Assembly: GCF_007362775.1 (NCBI RefSeq)
Contig: NZ_CP041692.1
Coordinates: 1,922,001 to 1,986,000 of the forward strand
Origin: Microlunatus elymi
GTDB lineage: Bacteria; Actinomycetota; Actinomycetes; Propionibacteriales; Propionibacteriaceae
Direction: 5' to 3'
DNA: 64,000 nucleotides
The notes below the pieces were generated by a model. That model was not told the origin of the DNA. It made no database searches and saw nothing but the letters and a program-made list of their open reading frames with translations. The first letter of the stretch is position 1; the number at the start of each line of letters is the position of its first letter. Made by a program: the position numbers and the translations under genes. Shown here one piece after another: positions 44,873-54,258 of the stretch.

Positions 44873-45130
44873 CTACATCCACTTGCGGCGTTTGAAGATG
44901 ACGTACAGGCCGATTGCGAAGGCGACCGTGAGGGCGACCGCGAGCGGGTAACCGAACACCCAATGCAGTTCGGGCATGACGTCGAAGTTCATGCCGTAGA
45001 TCGCTGCGATCAGGGTGGGTTCGAAGAGGATCGCAGCCCAGCCGGAGATCTTCTTCATGTCCTCGTTCTGCCGCTGGGCGACGAGGGTGGCGTTGACGTT
45101 GAGGATCTGCGTGCGGTCACCCAGCTCGGT
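44873..45130 (-). pseudogene. C-terminal stump of a CorA Mg2+/Co2+ channel
   Basis: The frame reads LNVNATLVAQRQNEDMKKIS, then WAAILFEPTLIAAIYGMNFD, and a second TM ending VIFKRRKWM. The GMN selectivity loop between the two TM helices is diagnostic of CorA. The ~250-residue cytosolic funnel is missing: similarity ends near 45130, where an amidohydrolase fragment begins in the opposite direction. Confidence 0.85.
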
Positions 45131-45696
45131 CTGACGACCGCCGCTTCGACGTGCTGTGGGATCGCGCCCAGTCGCTCGACGTACCGCTCTACCTGCATCC
45201 GTCCAACGGTGTCGATGTCGCCGACGTGCTTTCCGGCCACCCCGAGTTGATCGGACCGATGTGGAGCTGGGGCATCGATACGTCCAGCCATGTGCTGCGG
45301 TTGATTTTCGGCGGAGTGTTCGACCGTTTCCCGACGGCGAAGCTACTGGTCGGCCATATGGGGGAGGGGCTGCCGTACGCGTTGTGGCGGTTGGACTCGC
45401 GATGGGACTTCCACCATCACCACGGTGTCGAACTGTCGCTCGGTCATCCGTCGGCCTACCTCCGCAGGAACCTGTGGGTCACCACCGGCGGCGTTTGTGA
45501 CGTGCCACCGCTGCGCTGCGCGATCGACGCCCTGGGTGCCGACCGGGTGCTGTTCGCGACCGACTACCCGTTCGAATCCATCCCGGTGGCCACCGAATTC
45601 CTCCGCTCGGCGCGCATCTTCGAGGCCGAACGGGAGATGATCAGCCACGCAAATGCCGAGCAGCTGCTGCAGATCGACCCCGTTCCGGTCGGCTGA
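45130..45696 (+). pseudogene. C-terminal part of an amidohydrolase (ACMSD/gamma-resorcylate decarboxylase-like)
   Basis: Similarity begins at DDRRFDVLWDRAQSLDVPLY with LHPSN, and continues through LIFGGVFDRFPTAKLLVGHM, HHHGVELSLGHPSAYLRRNL and ADRVLFATDYPFESIPVA (the metal-binding Asp). The first ~130 residues of the barrel, including the metal-binding H-x-H, are missing. The family decarboxylates aromatic or related acids. The break coincides with the end of the CorA stump, so both genes were cut by one rearrangement. Confidence 0.8.
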
Positions 45697-46186: not shown

Positions 46187-47542
46187 CTACGCCGTACGAG
46201 TCGCGCGGCCGGCTCGACGGGTGACCGGTGGCGGCCAGGCGGCGAAGGTGGCGGTCGCTGATTCGTCGGCGGCGATTTCCAGTAGCCGGTTGTATTTTGC
46301 GGTCCGTTCGCCGCGTGCCGGGGCGCCGGACTTGAGTTGGCCGCAGCCTGCGCCGACGGCGAGGTCGGCGATGAAGGTGTCGTCGGTCTCGCCGGAGCGG
46401 TGCGAGACCATGGCCCGCCAGCCGGCCCGATAACACTGCGCTATTGCTTCCAGAGTTTGGGTCACGGTGCCGATCTGATTGACCTTGATCAGGGCGGCGT
46501 TGGCGGTGCCGTTGCCGATGCCGCGTTTGATCAGCTGGGGATTGGTGCAGAAGATGTCGTCGCCGACGATCTGGATCCGGCTGCCGAGCCGATGGGTGAG
46601 CAACGACCAGCCGTCCCAGTCGTCCTCGGCCAGGCCGTCCTCGACGCTCCAGATCGGATAACGCTCGATCAGCGATGCGTAGTAGTCGATCAATCCGCCC
46701 GCCTCGTAGTGCTCTCCACAAAGGTCGTATCCGCCGCCTTCGTGGTGGAAGCCGTTGGCGGCTGGGTCGAGTGCGATCGCGATCTGGTTGGGCCCGGGTG
46801 TGTAGCCGGCCGCCTCGATCGCGCGGACCAGCAGGTCCAGGGCCACGGTCGGATCATCGATCCGCGGGGCGAATCCGCCCTCGTCGCCGAGTCCGGGCGG
46901 GTCGCCGGACTCGATCAGAATCGCGTGTAGTCGGTGGTAGATCTCTGCTCCGGCTCGGACCGCGTCGGCGAAGCTGGGCGCGCCGAGTGGGGCGATCATG
47001 AACTCCTGGAAGGGAAGGTCGTTGCTCGCGTGCGCTCCGCCGTTGATCACGTTGAAGTGCGGCACCGGCAATCGGGGTGCGTGCTCGGCGGCTCCGATCC
47101 GGTCCACGCGTTCATTGAGCACGTCGTGCAGCAGCTGCCACAATGGCTGCTTGTGGAGGGTGGCTATGGCGCGAGCGGCTGCCATTGAGACACCGACGGC
47201 CACGTTGGCGCCGAGGTGGGCGAATCGATCGGTGCCGTCGAGGGTCGTCAGTTCGGCGTCCAGTGCCGCCAGATCCGATGGTTCTTGGAGTGGGCGTCCG
47301 GCGAGTCGGTTGTTGAGCTCGGCTTCCGCGTTGTGGGCGACGGTCCGGACGCCGCGGCCCAGGTAGCGGTGCGACTCGTCGTCGCGGAGTTCGACGGCTT
47401 CCCGCCCGCCGGTCGACGCGCCGGAGGGGACCCGCGCGATGGCCGTGGTGCCTTGGTCCAGCCGCAGATTCACCTGGACGGTCGGGTTGCCTCTGGAGTC
47501 CAGGATCTCGATGATCTTGATCCGTTGCAGTTGCGCCACCAT
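46187..47542 (-). CDS. eno: Enolase (second copy, island-encoded)
   Basis: This 451-residue protein is a full enolase, interconverting 2-phosphoglycerate and phosphoenolpyruvate. Active-site segments are intact: VPSGASTGGREAVELRD, GGAHASND, FQEFMIAPLGA, GDEGGFAPR, IALDPAANGF (metal Asp; the usual S-E-F is N-G-F), SVEDGLAEDDWDGW, IVGDDIF, LIKVNQIGT (catalytic Lys), SHRSGETDDT and GAPARGERTAKYN. It is the last gene of a tightly packed operon, 6 bases after the phosphatase gene. Sequence drift suggests a specialised paralogue rather than the housekeeping gene, which is not in the window. Confidence 0.93.
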   Translation of the reverse strand: MVAQLQRIKIIEILDSRGNPTVQVNLRLDQGTTAIARVPSGASTGGREAVELRDDESHRYLGRGVRTVAHNAEAELNNRLAGRPLQEPSDLAALDAELTTLDGTDRFAHLGANVAVGVSMAAARAIATLHKQPLWQLLHDVLNERVDRIGAAEHAPRLPVPHFNVINGGAHASNDLPFQEFMIAPLGAPSFADAVRAGAEIYHRLHAILIESGDPPGLGDEGGFAPRIDDPTVALDLLVRAIEAAGYTPGPNQIAIALDPAANGFHHEGGGYDLCGEHYEAGGLIDYYASLIERYPIWSVEDGLAEDDWDGWSLLTHRLGSRIQIVGDDIFCTNPQLIKRGIGNGTANAALIKVNQIGTVTQTLEAIAQCYRAGWRAMVSHRSGETDDTFIADLAVGAGCGQLKSGAPARGERTAKYNRLLEIAADESATATFAAWPPPVTRRAGRATRTA

Positions 47543-47548
47543 CGCCGA

Positions 47549-48259
47549 TCACCTCGTCGTCTGCGGTGGGCTGATCACCGCGTCGGCGGTGTCCTCTCCC
47601 TGTTCGTCGCTCGTCGACCACGTCGACACCCGGTCCGATTCGGCCCACCGATACCGGTTGACCGCCACCGGCCGCCATCGGGACGGCTCGAGCAAGATCA
47701 GATTCCAGCACGCCGTGTGTTGCTCGATCGGTCCGTCGTCCGTTCCCTGCAACAGATCCGCCAGCAGGGTGCGGTTGACCGCGTCGTGTGACACCAGCAC
47801 CACGCACCCCTCACCGAGCAACGGGCGTTGATCCTCCAGCACCCGCCGAGCCCGCCGGCTGACGGAGGCCGACGGTTCGACGTCCGGCACCCGATCGAGG
47901 CTGCCGTAGTGGTCGATCAGTTCCGCTTCCCGGTGACCGGACCAGGAGCCGTAGTCGCGGTCACTCAGGCCGGCTGCGGTGCGGACGCCGGCCTCGGCCA
48001 CCGAGCCGCCGTGTCGGTCGACGATCATCCGGGCCGTTTGCTGCGCCCTGGTGAGCGGGCTGGCCAGCACCCGAACGATGTTCTTGTCGGCCAGGAACGC
48101 GGCCAGCCGGCTGACCTCTCGTCGGCCTTCATGATCAAGTTCCGGATCGAGCCGGCCACGGATCCGGCCGTCGGCGTTCAGAGCAGTACGGCCGTGCCGG
48201 ACCAAGATCACGGCATTGGCGCGTGGGATTCGCACGTCAGCAACCGCTGGCTGGATCAT
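47549..48259 (-). CDS. Histidine phosphatase / phosphoglycerate mutase-like enzyme in the MutS operon
   Basis: This 236-residue branch-2 histidine phosphatase has the acceptor motif ILVRHGRTALNADG, arginine segment ASPLTRAQQTARM, DYGSWSG near the acid, and LVSHDAVNRTLLADLL with the second His. The N-terminal ~10 and C-terminal ~40 residues are unmatched extensions. Its start overlaps the MutS-like stop by four bases and the enolase follows by 6 bases. Mutase and enolase are consecutive glycolytic activities, so it may make 2-phosphoglycerate, but phosphatases of this branch often hydrolyse other substrates. Confidence 0.88.
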   Translation of the reverse strand: MIQPAVADVRIPRANAVILVRHGRTALNADGRIRGRLDPELDHEGRREVSRLAAFLADKNIVRVLASPLTRAQQTARMIVDRHGGSVAEAGVRTAAGLSDRDYGSWSGHREAELIDHYGSLDRVPDVEPSASVSRRARRVLEDQRPLLGEGCVVLVSHDAVNRTLLADLLQGTDDGPIEQHTACWNLILLEPSRWRPVAVNRYRWAESDRVSTWSTSDEQGEDTADAVISPPQTTR

Positions 48260-49752
48260 CGCAGGCTCCCTTCCATCACTCGTTGGTAGATGTCCTTGCC
48301 GAAGCTGGTCGGCAGTGGTTCGCCGGGAAGAACCCGGTAGGTCCGGGCGCCGTCGTCGCGGCGCTGGGCGCGTAACGCAATCGTGTCTGGCAGCTCGGCG
48401 CGCAGCCGGCGGGCCAGGTCGTAGTTGTGCGTGACGAACACGAAGCCGACGTCACGATCGGCGAACGCCTGCAGGAATTCGGTGCCGAGATCGGCGGCTT
48501 CGCGAGCGTCGGTGGAGGCCAGCGATTCGTTCATCAGGATCAGCGCTCCGGGACCGATCGCGTCCACGATCTTGCCCAGTCGGATCAGCTCGTCGTCGAA
48601 CCGACCGCTGGACATCGTACTGTCCTCCTCACGGATGAAGTGACTGCACACATCCGTTCGCACGGAGCAGCAGAAGTCGTCGGCTGCCACAAACATGCCG
48701 CACTGGGCCATCAGTTGCGCTGTTCCCAAGGTACGAAGGAAAGTTGACTTGCCGCCGGAGTTGGCGCCGGTGATGATCACGCCATTGGCCGAATCAGCGT
48801 CAAGATCATTCGGCACCACCTGCGCAGGGTGATCGGACAACGCCAAGCACGGCTCGTAGAGCCCGTGGCCGTGCCAGCGGCGCCGGTCGTGTTCGGCGAC
48901 CTCGGGCATCACCACCGAACGGCCGCGGTCGGCCAGTCGGCGCCGCAGGTTCAGGCAGCCGAGATAGAAGCCGGTCTCGCGACGCAGGGCACGGAAGTAG
49001 TCGACCAGGAAGTCCGCAGCCTGGCCGGCCGCGTCGGCCACGTGGTTGACGGCCCGATCACGCAGGTCCTCCAGCGCCTGGGCGCCGGCGTCGTCGCGGG
49101 CCGGGATCTGGACGGACACCGAGGAGCCGTGCGACAACCCGACCCGTTCCAGCAGCGGTTCCTTCTCCGACGGGTGCAGCAGGTCGTCGACGCCGGTGTT
49201 GGCCTGACCCAGGTGCTTGCCGATGATCACTCCGTCGGGGAACTGCAACAACCGCAGTTGCTGCCGGGCCGCGGCGAAGAACTCGTCGTCCAGGTCGGCC
49301 AGGATGCCGCGATGCAGGGCAGACAAACCGGGCGAGGTGACTGAGTCGACCTCCGTGGCGGCGATGTTGTGTAGTCGATCAAGGAACGGCAACAAGGCCG
49401 ACAGGACGTTGATGGCACGGTGCAGCACCAGGCTGGGGTGGTATCGGACGAAGCCGACGTAGATCTTGCGCTCGGCCGCGACAGCCTGGCCGGCGAGGGT
49501 GTAGATGTCGGCGATGGCGTTGGGTCGCCGGATGCAGTCGTTCAGCACCTGCTGGCGGTGTCGGATCTCGGCGACGCTGCGTAGGGGTGCCAGCAGCGCG
49601 GAGCGGACCACGTTGTACAAGAAGCGGTCGTCGCCACTCATCGCCTCGAAGATCGTTTCCAGTTGCAGATCCTGGACCAGATCGTCGGCCAGCAGCGAGG
49701 GGTACGGGGTGATCGGAAAGGACCGATCGGCGAACATCAACTGAACCTTCAT
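48256..49752 (-). CDS. MutS-like ATPase B
   Basis: This 498-residue protein keeps the MutS lever (III) and ATPase (V) parts and lacks the mismatch-recognition and connector domains. Residues about 1-300 are helical; the ATPase has Walker A ITGANSGGKSTFLRTLG, a signature-like REEDSTMSSGRFDDELIRLG, Walker B LILMNESLASTDAREA (Asp replaced by Asn before the Glu) and the His switch FVFVTHNYDLARRL. It overlaps the other MutS-like gene by four bases and the phosphatase gene by four bases. It probably works as a dimer with its neighbour. It is not a canonical mismatch-repair MutS. Confidence 0.88.
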   Translation of the reverse strand: MKVQLMFADRSFPITPYPSLLADDLVQDLQLETIFEAMSGDDRFLYNVVRSALLAPLRSVAEIRHRQQVLNDCIRRPNAIADIYTLAGQAVAAERKIYVGFVRYHPSLVLHRAINVLSALLPFLDRLHNIAATEVDSVTSPGLSALHRGILADLDDEFFAAARQQLRLLQFPDGVIIGKHLGQANTGVDDLLHPSEKEPLLERVGLSHGSSVSVQIPARDDAGAQALEDLRDRAVNHVADAAGQAADFLVDYFRALRRETGFYLGCLNLRRRLADRGRSVVMPEVAEHDRRRWHGHGLYEPCLALSDHPAQVVPNDLDADSANGVIITGANSGGKSTFLRTLGTAQLMAQCGMFVAADDFCCSVRTDVCSHFIREEDSTMSSGRFDDELIRLGKIVDAIGPGALILMNESLASTDAREAADLGTEFLQAFADRDVGFVFVTHNYDLARRLRAELPDTIALRAQRRDDGARTYRVLPGEPLPTSFGKDIYQRVMEGSLR

Positions 49753-51377
49753 GCTTCGGCTCCTCGGCTCGGCGCGGTGGACTCTTGGCGGGGCGACGGC
49801 TCTGGTTGCGCGGGCCGGCTCAGGCGCCGGACGATCTCGGCGCGTGTGAGCCGGTGTTTGGCCGCCAGTGCCAGCGCGTGGGCGGTGCCCTGCGGCGGCA
49901 TCCGGTCCACGTGAAAGGTGCGTACGGCAGGATCCTCCGGCAGCGTTCGACTCACCATGCTGACCGCGCCAGGTGCCGAGGCGAGTTCCTCGACGAAGGT
50001 GACGTAGACGGTGATCGTGTCGGACCTGCCGATCTTGGCCAGCACCGCACCGCCCAGATACTGGGCGTCGTCGATGGTGGTGGAACTGAACATCTCGTTG
50101 ATCACCAGCACCGAGCGGCCGGTGGACTGCTGCAATATGTCGCGGATGCGAATCACGTCGTCTTCCAACTTGCCTCCCTCGGTGTCCCGATCACGATCCT
50201 CGACCCGTTCGAAGTGGGTGAAGATCCGATCCATCAGATGGAGCCGCGCATGCGACGCCGGTACCGGAAATCCCAACCCAGCAAGGTAGAACACCTGTCC
50301 GACCATCCGGGCGAACGTGGTCTTACCGCCCTGATTCGGACCCGACAGCACCAGCGCCCGTTCGTCACCTTCGAGCGTGGCGTCGTTGCAGACGAGCCGC
50401 CCGGGATCGATGTTCAGTCCGAGCGCCAGGTCGAACCCGGACCGGACGTCCAGTGCGGGCGGATCGGTGAATTCGGGCAGCGCGAACCGCAGGCCCGCCG
50501 CCCGGAGCGGATCGGTGATCGCCAGATATCCCAGGCACACTTGCAGTTCGCGATCGAACCGGCTGATCACCGCATCGATGAAGGTGGCGTGTCTGCGGCA
50601 ATGTTCGGCGAGCCGGCCGAACAGGTCGGCGTTCAGCTTGGCCAGGCAGCCGAGGATCTGTTCGTCGACGTGGGTGAAGCTCGGCGGCCCGAGCTTGATC
50701 AAATGGGAGTCGACGTCCGATTGCTGAAACCGCTCGAAGGTCGCCGTCACCACCTTGCTGAAGTCCTGATCGCTGCGTTCGCTGGTGACGGTGACCTTGG
50801 GGCCGCGGATACGTACGGCATAGTGCAGCGACGCCAGCTCGTTTTGGAGTCGACGATTGTCCTTGCCGAGTTCGACGAACCGCTCGGAAGCGACGTACTC
50901 GTCCAGGTATTCCATGATCGACTTCAGTGCGTTCGATCGCGGCCCGACCTGTTGGAGCAACTCACGCAACGAAGCCAGCGCGGTCAGGTAGCGGTGGATG
51001 GCCTCCAGTCGGCAGCCCTGTCCGTAGCGGCGGTACGAGGTCTTCTCCGCCGCCGACTGCCAGCGCCGCATGACGCGCATCGCCTCGGCGAACTCCTCCA
51101 GGCCGTGCCGAAGTTGATCATCGGCCAGGTCATCGAAGACGGCTTGTCGATAGCGAACCGCCGCCACCGTCGGAAGCGGGGTCCACAGATACGGCGCGAG
51201 GTCGTAGGGCTCGCGTTTCGCGGTGAGGGAGGCGACGATCTGATCAAGATTGAGATCGGCGAACGCGTCCGGAGGTCGGTCCGCAAGCTCGATTGCCGTC
51301 AGCTCGGCGGGGAACAGCAAGCTGGGTTGCCGATGTGTCTCTTTGCTCGTCGGCCGGATCGGCAACGTGTCGGTCAT
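49749..51377 (-). CDS. MutS-like ATPase A
   Basis: This 542-residue protein is the first gene of the operon. Its architecture resembles the neighbour but the sequences are quite different, so they are not a recent duplication. Walker A is LSGPNQGGKTTFARMVGQ, followed by PVPASHARLHLMDRIFTHFE (matching the LPADHA region of MutS) and EGGKLEDDVIRIRDIL. Walker B is VLVINEMFSSTTIDDA, again with Asn in place of Asp, and the end TAHALALAAKHRLTRAEIVR matches the MutS dimer helix. No mismatch-binding N-terminus is present. The ribosome-binding site lies inside a hairpin (51383-51410). Confidence 0.88.
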   Translation of the reverse strand: MTDTLPIRPTSKETHRQPSLLFPAELTAIELADRPPDAFADLNLDQIVASLTAKREPYDLAPYLWTPLPTVAAVRYRQAVFDDLADDQLRHGLEEFAEAMRVMRRWQSAAEKTSYRRYGQGCRLEAIHRYLTALASLRELLQQVGPRSNALKSIMEYLDEYVASERFVELGKDNRRLQNELASLHYAVRIRGPKVTVTSERSDQDFSKVVTATFERFQQSDVDSHLIKLGPPSFTHVDEQILGCLAKLNADLFGRLAEHCRRHATFIDAVISRFDRELQVCLGYLAITDPLRAAGLRFALPEFTDPPALDVRSGFDLALGLNIDPGRLVCNDATLEGDERALVLSGPNQGGKTTFARMVGQVFYLAGLGFPVPASHARLHLMDRIFTHFERVEDRDRDTEGGKLEDDVIRIRDILQQSTGRSVLVINEMFSSTTIDDAQYLGGAVLAKIGRSDTITVYVTFVEELASAPGAVSMVSRTLPEDPAVRTFHVDRMPPQGTAHALALAAKHRLTRAEIVRRLSRPAQPEPSPRQESTAPSRGAEA

Positions 51378-51382
51378 GGTAC

Positions 51383-51410
51383 GGCTCCTGTCGTGTGATC
51401 AACAGGAGCC
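51383..51410 (-). promoter_or_regulatory. Hairpin covering the Shine-Dalgarno of the MutS-like operon
   Basis: GGCTCCTG (51383-51390) and CAGGAGCC (51403-51410) form a perfect 8-bp inverted repeat with a 12-base loop. In the mRNA the downstream arm contains AGGAG, seven bases from the ATG at 51377, so folding would hide the ribosome-binding site. It may act as a translational switch or, as DNA, an operator. Confidence 0.6.
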
Positions 51411-51467
51411 ATCAGCCCGTGGGCAATCGTGCCGGCGAGCCCCATCGCCGCCGCCCATGTTACCCGA

Positions 51468-52709
51468 TCAGGCCTCGCCGCCACTCGAATCCGCCTCCGA
51501 CGGTGTGAGACGACGGCGGGCCGCCAGGATGAACGGGATCGCGGCCAGTTCGGCGGCGATCGCGAAGACGACCACGGCGATCAGGGACAGGTTGAACAGG
51601 GCACCGATGGCGGTGCTGCCGGCGAACCAGGCGATGCCGTAGACGCTGGTGAACAGGCCGTACGCCCCGGCGCGGCGATCGGCCGGCACCATCGGCGCGA
51701 CGGCGGCCGGGATGATCGATTCGTGCACGCCCATGCCGAGTCCCCAAATGCAGACGCCGATCAGGCTCGGCCAGAATCCGCCGAGAAACGCCAGCGGCGC
51801 ATAGGCGGCGCTGACGACGGTCAGCGGGATCAGCAGCCCGATCCCGGTCCGGTCGAACAGCCGACCGAACGCCAATGAGCCGGCTCCGGAGACGGCCATC
51901 GCCGCGGCGTAGAACACCGGCACCAGGTCGGCCGGCACCGTCGTGCCCTTGCTGAAACCGAACGCGATGATCGGAAAGTCGGCGAACCCGGCGGCCACCA
52001 GGGCGGCGGCGATCAGATAGATCCAGAACGCCCGCGGGTAACGCGAACGCCGACTCGGCGACGGCGGCGCCGGCTCGAGATCCTGCGGCCGGGGGTAGAG
52101 CAGGCGGGCAACCACCAGCAGGCTCAGCATGATCGCGGCCGGGATGGCCAGCGCGGCGAAGGCGAGTCGATAGTCGTCCTGGTGGGTCGCGAGGATCACC
52201 GCCACCAACAGCGGGCCGACCATGGCACCGAACTGGTCCAAGGCCTCGTGCACGCCGAAGCCCCAGCCGTACCCCATCTGCTTGGCGGCGTGGGACAGCA
52301 TCGCGTCCCGGGGCGGGTTGCGGATCGCCTTGCCGATCCGTTCGGCGATGATCAACACCGCCGCGGCCGGCCAGTTGCCCGCCAGCGCCAGCAACGGCAC
52401 CACCGACATCTGCAGGACGTAGCCGCCTATCGTGATCGGCCAGTACAGCCCGGTCCGGTCGGCACTGCGCCCAGAGACCAGCCGCAGCCCGTAGCCGACC
52501 AGTTCGCCGAATCCGGTGATCATGCTGATCGCCAGCGCACCGGCTCCCAAACTGGCAAGGAACGGACCGATGATGGAGCGCGAGCTCTCGTAGGTGAAGT
52601 CGGCGAAGAAGCTCATCACACCGACCATCAGGACGAACTTCAGCGCCGTCGATCGGATGCCCGTTCGTCCGTCGTCACCCGTCGACGCATGGTCGGCGTC
52701 ATCGCTCAC
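51468..52709 (-). CDS. Major facilitator superfamily transporter
   Basis: This 413-residue, 12-helix transporter has a cytosolic loop at the centre (YPRPQDLEPAPPSPSRRSRY). The first helix region FVLMVGVMSFFADFTYESSR and the A-loop LVSGRSADRTG identify an MFS exporter of the kind often annotated as drug or sugar-analogue efflux. IRNPPRDAMLSHAAKQMGYG is also typical of this subgroup. It precedes the MutS-like operon on the same strand, with 90 bases between. A palindromic operator candidate lies 58 bases upstream. Confidence 0.88.
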   Translation of the reverse strand: MSDDADHASTGDDGRTGIRSTALKFVLMVGVMSFFADFTYESSRSIIGPFLASLGAGALAISMITGFGELVGYGLRLVSGRSADRTGLYWPITIGGYVLQMSVVPLLALAGNWPAAAVLIIAERIGKAIRNPPRDAMLSHAAKQMGYGWGFGVHEALDQFGAMVGPLLVAVILATHQDDYRLAFAALAIPAAIMLSLLVVARLLYPRPQDLEPAPPSPSRRSRYPRAFWIYLIAAALVAAGFADFPIIAFGFSKGTTVPADLVPVFYAAAMAVSGAGSLAFGRLFDRTGIGLLIPLTVVSAAYAPLAFLGGFWPSLIGVCIWGLGMGVHESIIPAAVAPMVPADRRAGAYGLFTSVYGIAWFAGSTAIGALFNLSLIAVVVFAIAAELAAIPFILAARRRLTPSEADSSGGEA

Positions 52710-52766
52710 TGGTCCACACCTCGGATCGGCCGACAGCCCGTTGAGTGTCCATCGTCACGTTACTGC

Positions 52767-52782
52767 AATAACGGTCGTTATT
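52767..52782. promoter_or_regulatory. 16-bp palindromic operator candidate upstream of the MFS gene
   Basis: AATAACGGTCGTTATT has 7-bp perfect arms around a 2-base centre, 58 bases upstream of the MFS start. AT-rich palindromes of this shape are typical TetR or MarR sites. No such regulator gene remains nearby. Confidence 0.55.
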
Positions 52783-52798
52783 TTGGTGGGCCGTGATC

Positions 52799-52814
52799 CG
52801 TAGGTCGTCCTACG
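52799..52814. repeat. Short inverted repeat
   Basis: CGTAGG-TCGT-CCTACG forms a 6-bp stem with a 4-base loop. It lies 17 bases beyond the operator candidate. Confidence 0.4.
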
Positions 52815-53099
52815 TGGGGACCTAGCGAGCGACGAGGCGATTACGGTCGGGGCCATCTGGCGGAGCCCGCTCGAACCGAACGACCATCAGGTCGGGGAGC
52901 TGCTGGACTCTGAGCCGATCGGTTTGAGACCACTGGCGCTCTTGCGGTTCGCTCCGAATGATGGACCCGCGGCTGGCTTCCGGCACCAAACGGGGCGCCT
53001 TCGCCAGCGTCGATCCGGTGCTTGGCCTCGACCTCCGCCGACTCGTCGGAGACCTGTGTCGAGCTGACGGCCCCTGCAGACCAGCAACGGGAGCCGATC

Positions 53100-53303
53100 A
53101 TGACCGCTGCACCTCAACACCACGCGGCCAACGGACATCGCTACGGCAGAGCGTTGCCTGCCTACACCGCGTCCGCCGACCGCACGGCGGCGGCGCGATG
53201 GCGAATCTGGCTCGGCGCGAGCACCTACGGTGCCGCTGCCTCCGTCTTGTTCCAGGTGATCCCCGAACTGACCGAACGCCGTGGCGAATCGATCATCTGC
53301 TGA
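53100..53303 (+). CDS. Small hypothetical protein
   Basis: A 67-residue frame starts at ATG 53100, with GGGAG about 8 bases upstream. It reads MTAAPQHHAANGHRYGRALP and later WRIWLGASTYGAAASVLFQV, possibly a weak membrane-associated helix. No family is recognised. Support is limited to the ribosome-binding site and coding-like third positions. Confidence 0.4.
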   Translation: MTAAPQHHAANGHRYGRALPAYTASADRTAAARWRIWLGASTYGAAASVLFQVIPELTERRGESIIC

Positions 53304-53362
53304 TATCGGCCCGGCAACAGCGAGCGCTTGTGCCGGTTGCAGCGATCTTGATCCTGCGGAGA

Positions 53363-53899
53363 TCAGGCTTGGCTCGCCGCTCTCTCCCACGGCAGCGGAC
53401 GGTCCGGGGCAGTTGGTGAAGTAGGGACGACGACCACCGGGCGCCACTGTCGATGAGCGAGATGGACGGCCACAGATGTGCCGAGAAAGTCTTGGATGTT
53501 GGCGCGTAGCCCGCCCGCGCGGCTGCCGACCACGATCACTTCGGCGTTGAGGATCTCTGCCTCTTCACGCAGCGCGATGGAGGTATCTCCCGCCAGTTGG
53601 CGGAAATCTACCGAGAGATCCGCCGGTACGAGAGCGAGAATGTGGTCACGTAGCTGCGGATCGAAGTCGTCCGGATCGTCGGCAAGGTCGGGGTCTATGG
53701 GTTCCGATTCGAACGTGCCGTCAGGCAACTCGCGGATGGGGAAACGGCTGGTGTCAACATGAGCGCAGATCAGCGTGACCCCGAACAGTGCGGCCAGCTT
53801 CGCGGCCACCAGAATCACGACGTCCTTCTGTTGCGGCTTGACGCCGACCAACACACACGGCGACGGCGCCCCTGGGGCAGGTATTCCCGATTCGGTCAT
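53363..53899 (-). CDS. Universal stress protein family
   Basis: This 178-residue protein has a single Usp domain. The N-terminal strand CVLVGVKPQQKDVVILVAAK leads into a helix; the ATP-binding loop is EVIVVGSRAGGLRANIQDFL with GTSVAVHLAHRQWRPVVVVP, a version of the G-x-x-G-x(9)-G-S/T pattern. An unusual acidic insert (SEPIDPDLADDPDDFDPQ) lies in the middle. Usp proteins bind ATP and accumulate in growth arrest. It stands alone in the island. Confidence 0.88.
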   Translation of the reverse strand: MTESGIPAPGAPSPCVLVGVKPQQKDVVILVAAKLAALFGVTLICAHVDTSRFPIRELPDGTFESEPIDPDLADDPDDFDPQLRDHILALVPADLSVDFRQLAGDTSIALREEAEILNAEVIVVGSRAGGLRANIQDFLGTSVAVHLAHRQWRPVVVVPTSPTAPDRPLPWERAASQA

Positions 53900-53934
53900 C
53901 TCGTACTCCCGGGATCAGTAGGGAGCAGGAGTCG

Positions 53935-54258
53935 TCAGCCGGCCGGCGGTTCGAGAAGGTTCTCTCGGGCGGACGCCGTCGCCCAACCGATATTCAACCG
54001 TGCCGCGGCATCGACGACAAGTGCTGAGGCGACCCGTGCGTTGGCTCCCATAACGGTGTCCGCAGTACGGCGATGGGACTCGCCGGGCCCGAGCGGGCCG
54101 ATGTGCTGAGCGGCTGATGGTCCCTGCAATGTGAGGCAGGTGATCGTCGTGACACGTTCCGGCCAGGTGAGGTCGCTCCTCTTGATCATCGAATCGGACC
54201 ACGGCCACCCGCCGACACCAGCCACCGACCGGATGAGGTCACTCGCAGACGTGATCAT
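53935..54258 (-). CDS. Hypothetical protein
   Basis: A 107-residue frame starts at ATG 54258, with GGAG about 9 bases upstream. It contains PERVTTITCLTLQGPSAAQH and TADTVMGANARVASALVVDA. No family recognised and the start is uncertain. It is divergent from the toxin-antitoxin pair. Confidence 0.35.
   Translation of the reverse strand: MITSASDLIRSVAGVGGWPWSDSMIKRSDLTWPERVTTITCLTLQGPSAAQHIGPLGPGESHRRTADTVMGANARVASALVVDAAARLNIGWATASARENLLEPPAG

Follow-up and report, generated by a model that had tools for sequence, protein, structure and literature searches.

In Microlunatus elymi, a minus-strand operon encodes two MutS-like ATPases (MutS-A and MutS-B), a histidine phosphatase and an enolase, and stands directly behind a fluoride riboswitch aptamer, at positions 46187 to 51377 of the 64,000-nucleotide stretch of contig NZ_CP041692.1 analysed here (the window). 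We consider it highly probable (roughly 0.93) that this is a fluoride-tolerance operon, a familiar type of operon in a new arrangement, and fluoride is what best explains the odd mix of a MutS pair, a phosphatase and a spare enolase. A sequence-only reading of the same DNA had suggested a defence, stress or metabolic sensing module. Of these, the stress module is borne out, the stress being fluoride, by the riboswitches at this locus and at most of the MutS-A loci examined; that reading overlooked the regulatory RNA. Metabolic sensing need not be invoked for this set of genes, enolase being a classic target of fluoride inhibition. The tight packing of the four genes, as that reading had described it, follows from their coordinates:

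46187-47542, minus strand: enolase (eno), 451 aa
47549-48259, minus strand: histidine phosphatase, branch 1, 236 aa; 6-base gap to eno
48256-49752, minus strand: MutS-B, MutS4B-like ATPase, 498 aa; 4-base overlap with the phosphatase gene
49749-51377, minus strand: MutS-A, MutS4A-like ATPase, 542 aa; 4-base overlap with the MutS-B gene

Fluoride riboswitches in the window and the genome

Two features of a fluoride-riboswitch-controlled operon were tested and both are present, namely an RF01734 aptamer 5' of the first gene and a pseudoknot with a mutually exclusive expression platform. Aptamers were scored with Rfam and with R1, an aptamer model trained on 24 fluoride aptamers, all taken from loci outside the window:

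51396-51458, minus strand: fluoride riboswitch aptamer directly upstream of MutS-A (the mutS aptamer); RF01734 33.7 bits, E 4.8e-6; R1 42.0 bits, E 3.9e-12
51383-51410, minus strand: expression-platform hairpin of 11 bp, arms 51410-51400 and 51393-51383
53919-53992, minus strand: fluoride riboswitch upstream of a universal stress protein (Usp) gene; RF01734 35.2 bits, above gathering; R1 36.9 bits, E 1.9e-10
54060-54133, plus strand: third, divergent fluoride riboswitch-like aptamer; R1 33.9 bits, E 2e-9; Rfam 23.4 bits, E 0.011
C1:2094204-2094274: fourth genomic fluoride riboswitch, immediately upstream of two tandem crcB genes (L110 6205-7189)

The Usp aptamer was found with Rfam at the gathering threshold, and the mutS and third aptamers by a permissive search. 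Three fluoride aptamers are thereby contained in 2.7 kb of the window, where the next-best R1 match over all 64 kb has an E-value of 0.31. Over the 5.12-Mb genome (150 of 7314 first-look candidates scored), R1 gave four sites at E <= 1.6e-7, the three of the window and one 118 kb away at the genes of CrcB, a fluoride exporter family, and four more sites that reach only E 0.07-0.86.

The P1 loop can pair with the 3' strand to form the pseudoknot at 6/6 positions in the mutS aptamer, 5/6 in the Usp aptamer and 6/6 in the third (best of 18 registers, G-U allowed). The 3' end of the mutS aptamer lies 18 bases ahead of the MutS-A start codon, and its 3' strand can alternatively form the 11-bp hairpin, which buries the Shine-Dalgarno sequence AGGAG at 51389-51385, so that this hairpin and the pseudoknot compete for one strand and are mutually exclusive pairing options. 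The region 51370-51470 folds at -49.6 kcal/mol (z -3.46), and the fold is weaker once the shared strand is blocked. This layout is that of a predicted translational on-switch, in which the mutS aptamer would respond to fluoride.

Linkage of the MutS pair to fluoride aptamers across genomes

To collect relatives of the operon, a MutS-A alignment was run against a single genome of each species; the best 80 of at least 572 relatives (at least 592 pattern matches), chosen by protein similarity, gave 79 loci (L023-L101), one of which, L023, overlaps L013, a training locus of the aptamer model. Within the 1000 nt upstream of MutS-A, 55 of the 79 have a fluoride aptamer (E <= 0.01) on the same strand, and 68 have one somewhere in the fetched stretch. 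As a control, 27 loci of ordinary enolases from the window's genome and its relatives and nine of MutS1 or MutS2 were searched; none of these 36 has an aptamer at E <= 0.01 (best 0.044), in stretches that amount to 156 kb, shorter than the 1.23 Mb of the test loci. The record titles of the MutS-A loci span many bacterial phyla and include some archaeal metagenome-assembled genomes, where binning errors are possible.

The linkage extends to plasmids. Of 72,556 plasmid records, 90 contain a MutS-A match, which in 45 of them covers at least 80% of the query; annotated examples include those of Klebsiella, Rubrobacter, Mycobacterium branderi, Rhodococcus and Burkholderia, and a Caballeronia record is without annotation. 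These five named loci with annotation have the MutS pair with fluoride aptamers, and those of Klebsiella, Burkholderia and Rhodococcus additionally have enolase and either CrcB or pyrophosphatase. Rfam places fluoride aptamers above gathering in each of nine loci scanned (three same-genus relatives and six plasmids). Among 57 genomes, an aptamer at E <= 0.001 is found in 17, which include the four with a strong MutS-A match.

Neighbours in the 79 loci include enolase in at least 19, crcB types in at least 13, pyrophosphatase in at least 10 and a phosphatase-like gene (29-43% identical) in at least 8, all of these counts being lower bounds because the set of protein queries was small. Enolase follows MutS-B within 500 nt at 3 of the 79, one of them a short match. 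Co-occurrence of the four families, which the sequence-only reading had named as a check, is thus found in part: MutS-B adjoins MutS-A in 78 of the 79 loci (the exception, L078, stops at a contig edge), the exact four-gene order recurs in none, and the pair with both enolase and a phosphatase-like gene (29-33% identical) occurs in only four (L044, L060, L061 and L077).

The MutS pair

MutS_V (PF00488) is the sole Pfam match in both MutS-like proteins (7.9e-14 and 6.2e-14), with no match to MutS domains I and II at E <= 0.01 in either, in keeping with the earlier description of ATPases that lack mismatch-binding domains. AlphaFold models of MutS-A (pLDDT 84.5) and MutS-B (85.7) both have the MutS fold and match MutS, MSH and MutS2 structures. 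In MutS-A, Walker A is kept, Walker B reads Asn-Glu and the H-loop residue is Phe; in MutS-B, Walker B is likewise Asn-Glu and the H-loop His is kept. All 50 rows of an alignment of MutS-A (the window plus 49 of the 79 loci) have Asn-Glu in Walker B and Phe in place of the H-loop His; of the 47 rows for MutS-B (the window plus 46 loci), 46 have Asn-Glu in Walker B and one Asp-Glu, and all 47 retain the H-loop His. In contrast, nine reference proteins from five genomes (three MutS1 and six MutS2, as assigned by their motifs) all have Asp-Glu and Thr-His.

Because the two genes form an adjacent pair with overlapping stop and start codons, as in mycobacterial MutS4A/MutS4B, the proteins likely belong to that subfamily; the 4-base overlap in the window has its counterpart in an overlap in 66 of 78 pairs of other loci. 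Both also lack domains I and II, which we take to be a trait of MutS4. A MutS mismatch repair protein was considered and rejected for both, on the missing MutS_I match and on Walker B reading Asn-Glu rather than Asp-Glu. MutS2 was rejected as well (TIGR01069 72.4 bits for MutS-B and 44.7 bits for the other protein, against a cut-off of 400, and no Smr match), as was KamC as the family: its model gave 25 matches in six genomes, none over the cut-off, and the motifs inspected were those of MutS1, MutS2 or the MutS4 pair. Published MutS4 primers have no match at three or fewer mismatches in the DNA of L019 and L067; one translated primer frame fits MutS-B of these two loci at 5 of 6 residues and MutS-A at 4 of 6, a weak sign, since the other frames discriminate poorly.

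Many prokaryotic MutS subfamilies are described as lacking domains I and II. Changes at E. coli MutS residues 693-696 cost ATPase activity and repair according to a review, whose structure table has a D693N mutant, also found in the PDB listing; judging from the motif, D693 would be the position of the Asp-to-Asn change in Walker B.

The enolase and the phosphatase

The window enolase matches Pfam Enolase_N (2.2e-39) and Enolase_C (2.5e-105) and scores 501.4 bits with NCBIfam TIGR01060, phosphopyruvate hydratase, against a cut-off of 300. All 11 active-site residues checked (in yeast numbering) are present, which agrees with the earlier statement that they are in place, and a changed active site as the basis of a fluoride-resistant enolase is therefore rejected. 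Nor is it the only copy in this genome, a state of affairs that the sequence-only reading had said would count against it: another full match lies at C1:4475087-4475929 and is 48% identical to the window copy, and there is a weak partial match of 22.4 bits.

In a tree of 52 enolases, the housekeeping copy falls among 26 ordinary enolases of its order (support 100/99), and the window enolase belongs to a group of six (support 100/100) whose other members are those of L124, L125 and L126, one from a Rhodococcus plasmid and one from an actinomycete island. Two changes of the island-type label are needed on this tree, the exception being L127 (genome G036) beside L091; the tree contains no ordinary enolases of other phyla and is therefore mute on the number of origins of island enolases. 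Among 40 genomes, island-type enolases besides the window's are those of G012, G014 and G022. Those of G012 (L124) and G022 (L125) have an aptamer directly upstream, and that of G014 (L126) has aptamers on both flanks, neither of which points into the gene. From its sequence, the window enolase is classed as a second copy of the fluoride-island type. Enolase is presented as a classic fluoride-inhibited enzyme, and its occurrence in fluoride riboswitch operons is covered, in a review.

The phosphatase belongs to His_Phos_1 (Pfam, 3.2e-36). Its identity as a phosphoglycerate mutase was rejected, as it scores 37.5 bits against the 81.7 of pgm_1 and also stays below the cut-offs of the other NCBIfam mutase models listed; since it passes no mutase cut-off, the earlier claim of two consecutive glycolytic activities is left unsupported. 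Homologues with 46-48% identity were found in 3 of 10 loci searched. In L014 and L015 they lie directly 3' of an RF01734 match, and in L019, the M. branderi plasmid locus, the homologue comes after both an RF01734 match and a Usp gene.

Relation to known systems

No literature on an operon of MutS with enolase and histidine phosphatase was found in the open literature. By title, no open paper on MutS together with a fluoride riboswitch was found either, and the KamB/KamC titles listed included none that bore on the topic; Baker 2012, reportedly the main fluoride-riboswitch paper, lay outside that search and may name MutS. The statement in the sequence-only reading that no function had been described was nevertheless too broad, given that a mutS gene behind crcB RNA was in print in 2010 (PMC2864571), and both an enolase in a tested fluoride operon (PMC5533749) and an island with MutS4A/B and enolase (PMC5742357) in 2017.

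Among the closest known systems is the GI3 operon of Enterobacter cloacae FRM, ppaC-uspA-eno-gpmA-crcB-orf5249, which lies on a genomic island and was studied with knockouts in 2017, fluoride resistance being lost on deletion (PMC5533749). It shares with the window an RF01734 fluoride riboswitch, an extra enolase and a universal stress protein. In contrast, it holds a pyrophosphatase, a phosphoglycerate mutase and crcB, whereas the window has another phosphatase, the MutS4 pair in first place and crcB elsewhere in the genome. Another is the locus on the Klebsiella plasmid pKp_SB61170_1 (L017), which has the MutS pair, an enolase, Usp and two fluoride riboswitches above gathering, although its enolase lies on the strand opposite to the MutS pair and it further carries an antiporter, crcB, an annotated phosphoglycerate mutase and a manganese pyrophosphatase.

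Weinberg 2010 reported the crcB motif RNA upstream of mutS before the fluoride ligand was known, and proposed DNA-damaging stress (PMC2864571). This is the same RNA class ahead of mutS as in the window, although no MutS subfamily or pair is given in the available part and the main text nowhere uses the word enolase. The Type I MutS4A and MutS4B of Mycobacterium yongonense, described in 2017, are an adjacent pair with overlapping stop and start codons, as in the window, and their island also holds enolase, together with NADH dehydrogenase and hydrogenase genes (PMC5742357). There the pair was read as recombination genes, and the word fluoride is absent from the paper's main text: M. smegmatis carrying the MutS4 operon gave 55 rifampin colonies versus 22, and among sequenced colonies 27/36 versus 5/16 had recombined, with longer tracts in the presence of the operon (PMC5742357). 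The M. branderi plasmid locus L019 has four aptamers above the gathering score and genes for NADH-quinone oxidoreductase, a hydrogenase-like protein, Usp, the phosphatase and the MutS pair. Because of these aptamers and the like gene content, the M. yongonense island could well be another fluoride island.

Points against a fluoride operon and alternative explanations

Several observations weigh against fluoride tolerance as the function of the operon. The mutS aptamer scores just under the Rfam RF01734 gathering score of 34. Eleven of the 79 MutS-A loci have no aptamer in the fetched stretch, some of them being short contigs, and the 79 are partly dependent, with two pairs more than 90% identical in MutS-A. 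The pair is rare among relatives, with MutS-A matches in 5 of 57 genomes (own included), four of them strong. MutS goes unmentioned in the available text on the E. cloacae operon (PMC5533749), and, since the 11 enolase residues checked are unchanged, there is among them no sequence sign of a fluoride-resistant enzyme.

Within a fluoride-tolerance operon, two explanations of the MutS4 pair deserve consideration, and we regard them as about equally likely, each somewhat short of even odds. In the first, the pair would be a DNA clamp that alters recombination or repair, its control by fluoride mirroring DNA or replication stress under fluoride. The MutS fold of both models, whose best E-values are to DNA-bound MutS or MSH proteins, points this way, as do the recombination effect of the MutS4 operon in M. 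smegmatis (PMC5742357) and the DNA-damaging stress suggested in 2010 (PMC2864571). However, neither protein has a match to a mismatch-recognition or connector domain, and the Walker B Asp is replaced by Asn throughout both alignments save for the single MutS-B row, at what would be the E. coli residues whose change costs ATPase activity and repair. Per 100 aa, the stretch before Walker A has no net positive charge (-1.44 over 48 rows and -0.12 over 47), a weak sign, as that charge is negative in the three MutS1 references too, and the published recombination effect comes from one heterologous construct (PMC5742357).

In the second explanation the pair would be an ATP-driven remodeller of a target other than DNA, for example collided ribosomes, as MutS2 is, or fluoride-locked enzymes, as is KamC, named a lysine aminomutase reactivase. 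Bacillus subtilis MutS2, whose ATPase splits ribosomes, resembles the MutS4 pair in consisting of core-lever, clamp and ATPase with domains I and II absent (PMC10897456); the six MutS2-like references checked differ from the pair in their canonical Asp-Glu Walker B. The best NCBIfam models for MutS-B are MutS2 (72.4 bits) and KamC (65 bits), though far below their cut-offs; the match of MutS-A to a MutS2 core has the highest TMt (0.63) among the 50 matches listed, by a score that favours short targets; and fluoride-inhibited metal enzymes are among the neighbours. Against this, the pair has no KOW or SMR domain, which B. subtilis MutS2 does have and which recruit it to collided ribosomes (PMC10897456). 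MutS-A reaches its highest NCBIfam score (69.7 bits) with MutS1 models, and MutS4 is not tied to enolase, given the 19 of 79 loci that have one and the 3 in which it closely follows MutS-B.

A more specific proposal, which we think unlikely as a whole, is that MutS4A-MutS4B is a fluoride-stress ATPase, found in assemblies of both bacteria and archaea, that has wrongly been named for mismatch repair. The fixed Asp-to-Asn change in Walker B at both sites, one of which lacks the H-loop His, would allow the heterodimer to work, or to act as a switch, when ordinary P-loop enzymes are trapped by magnesium-fluoride. The pair would free fluoride-arrested complexes, whether ribosomes, DNA machines or metal enzymes.

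One may also ask whether the MutS pair stands beside the enolase and the phosphatase by chance, with no shared role, as the lack of the exact four-gene order at 79 loci and the mere four loci with all families (phosphatases 29-33% identical) might suggest. Such a coincidence is highly improbable, since MutS4, the island enolase and the phosphatase family are each separately linked to fluoride aptamers, and since the four genes overlap by 4 bases or sit 6 apart behind one aptamer. Still less probable, indeed barely credible, is the anti-phage defence system entertained by the earlier reading: apart from the mobile context in relatives (the 90 plasmid records, 45 over at least 80% of MutS-A), nothing full length came from PADLOC (weak partial ATPase matches only, best E 0.0004), from a viral-contig scan with MutS-A alone, which detects close relatives only and gave none, or from phage records (11 match MutS-B, none covering 80%), and a fluoride RNA is near MutS-A at 68 of 79 loci. 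One phage record, MT837116.1 (7.7 kb, unannotated, of human faecal origin), resembles MutS-B in two places and may be mislabelled bacterial DNA.

Neighbouring genes

Two further genes lie upstream on the same strand:

51468-52709, minus strand: MFS transporter (Pfam MFS_1)
53363-53899, minus strand: universal stress protein gene (Pfam Usp, 3.1e-10), with its own fluoride riboswitch upstream

Homologues of the MFS transporter at 45-69% identity occur at no fewer than 12 of the 79 MutS-A loci, and at least five more loci have one at 24-30%. Copies in L057, L093 and L094 are 61-69% identical to that of the window and sit 3' of fluoride aptamers on the same strand. As this type of transporter occurs in fluoride islands of other phyla, the window gene likely belongs to the cluster, and it is a candidate fluoride-regulon transporter. 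The interval that separates the Usp gene from the MFS gene (52710-53362, some 650 bases) is devoid of recognised genes; ahead of the MFS gene it has a small palindrome-like site at about 52765-52785. The third aptamer points away from the operon and has no recognised intact gene downstream; it is possibly the leftover of a lost fluoride gene. Open frames tried in 52710-53362 or behind the third aptamer gave no Pfam match. The decayed neighbours noted earlier are to be found downstream of eno, where a C-terminal remnant of a CorA magnesium transporter (minus strand) adjoins an amidohydrolase fragment (plus strand) at 44876-45696.

Proposed mechanism and implications

We propose that fluoride entering the cell would bind the aptamer at 51458-51396, whose pseudoknot would then take the strand GGCUCC that is otherwise paired with the Shine-Dalgarno sequence of MutS4A. 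Translation of MutS4A would be switched on, and with it that of the coupled MutS4B, phosphatase and enolase. The second enolase would supply extra phosphopyruvate hydratase while fluoride inhibits the housekeeping enolase, and the phosphatase would probably aid phosphate or phosphoester balance. MutS4A and MutS4B may form a heterodimeric ATPase clamp whose task would be to rescue a nucleic-acid or protein complex arrested by fluoride, and CrcB, encoded elsewhere under the fourth copy of the switch, would expel fluoride.

With fluoride as the common denominator, the joining of DNA-clamp ATPases to glycolysis is no longer puzzling. The operon also brings together three strands of literature which, as far as the available texts go, do not mention one another: the crcB RNA before mutS (2010), the fluoride operon with enolase (2017) and MutS4 as a driver of recombination (2017). 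If the MutS4 family does take part in the fluoride response, the label "DNA mismatch repair protein MutS" that it bears on plasmids is misleading. To our knowledge, there has been no answer since 2010 to the question of why the fluoride response includes a MutS-like pair. The fixed Walker-B change, if the family does belong to that response, would give a direct experimental handle on why cells meet fluoride with such proteins.

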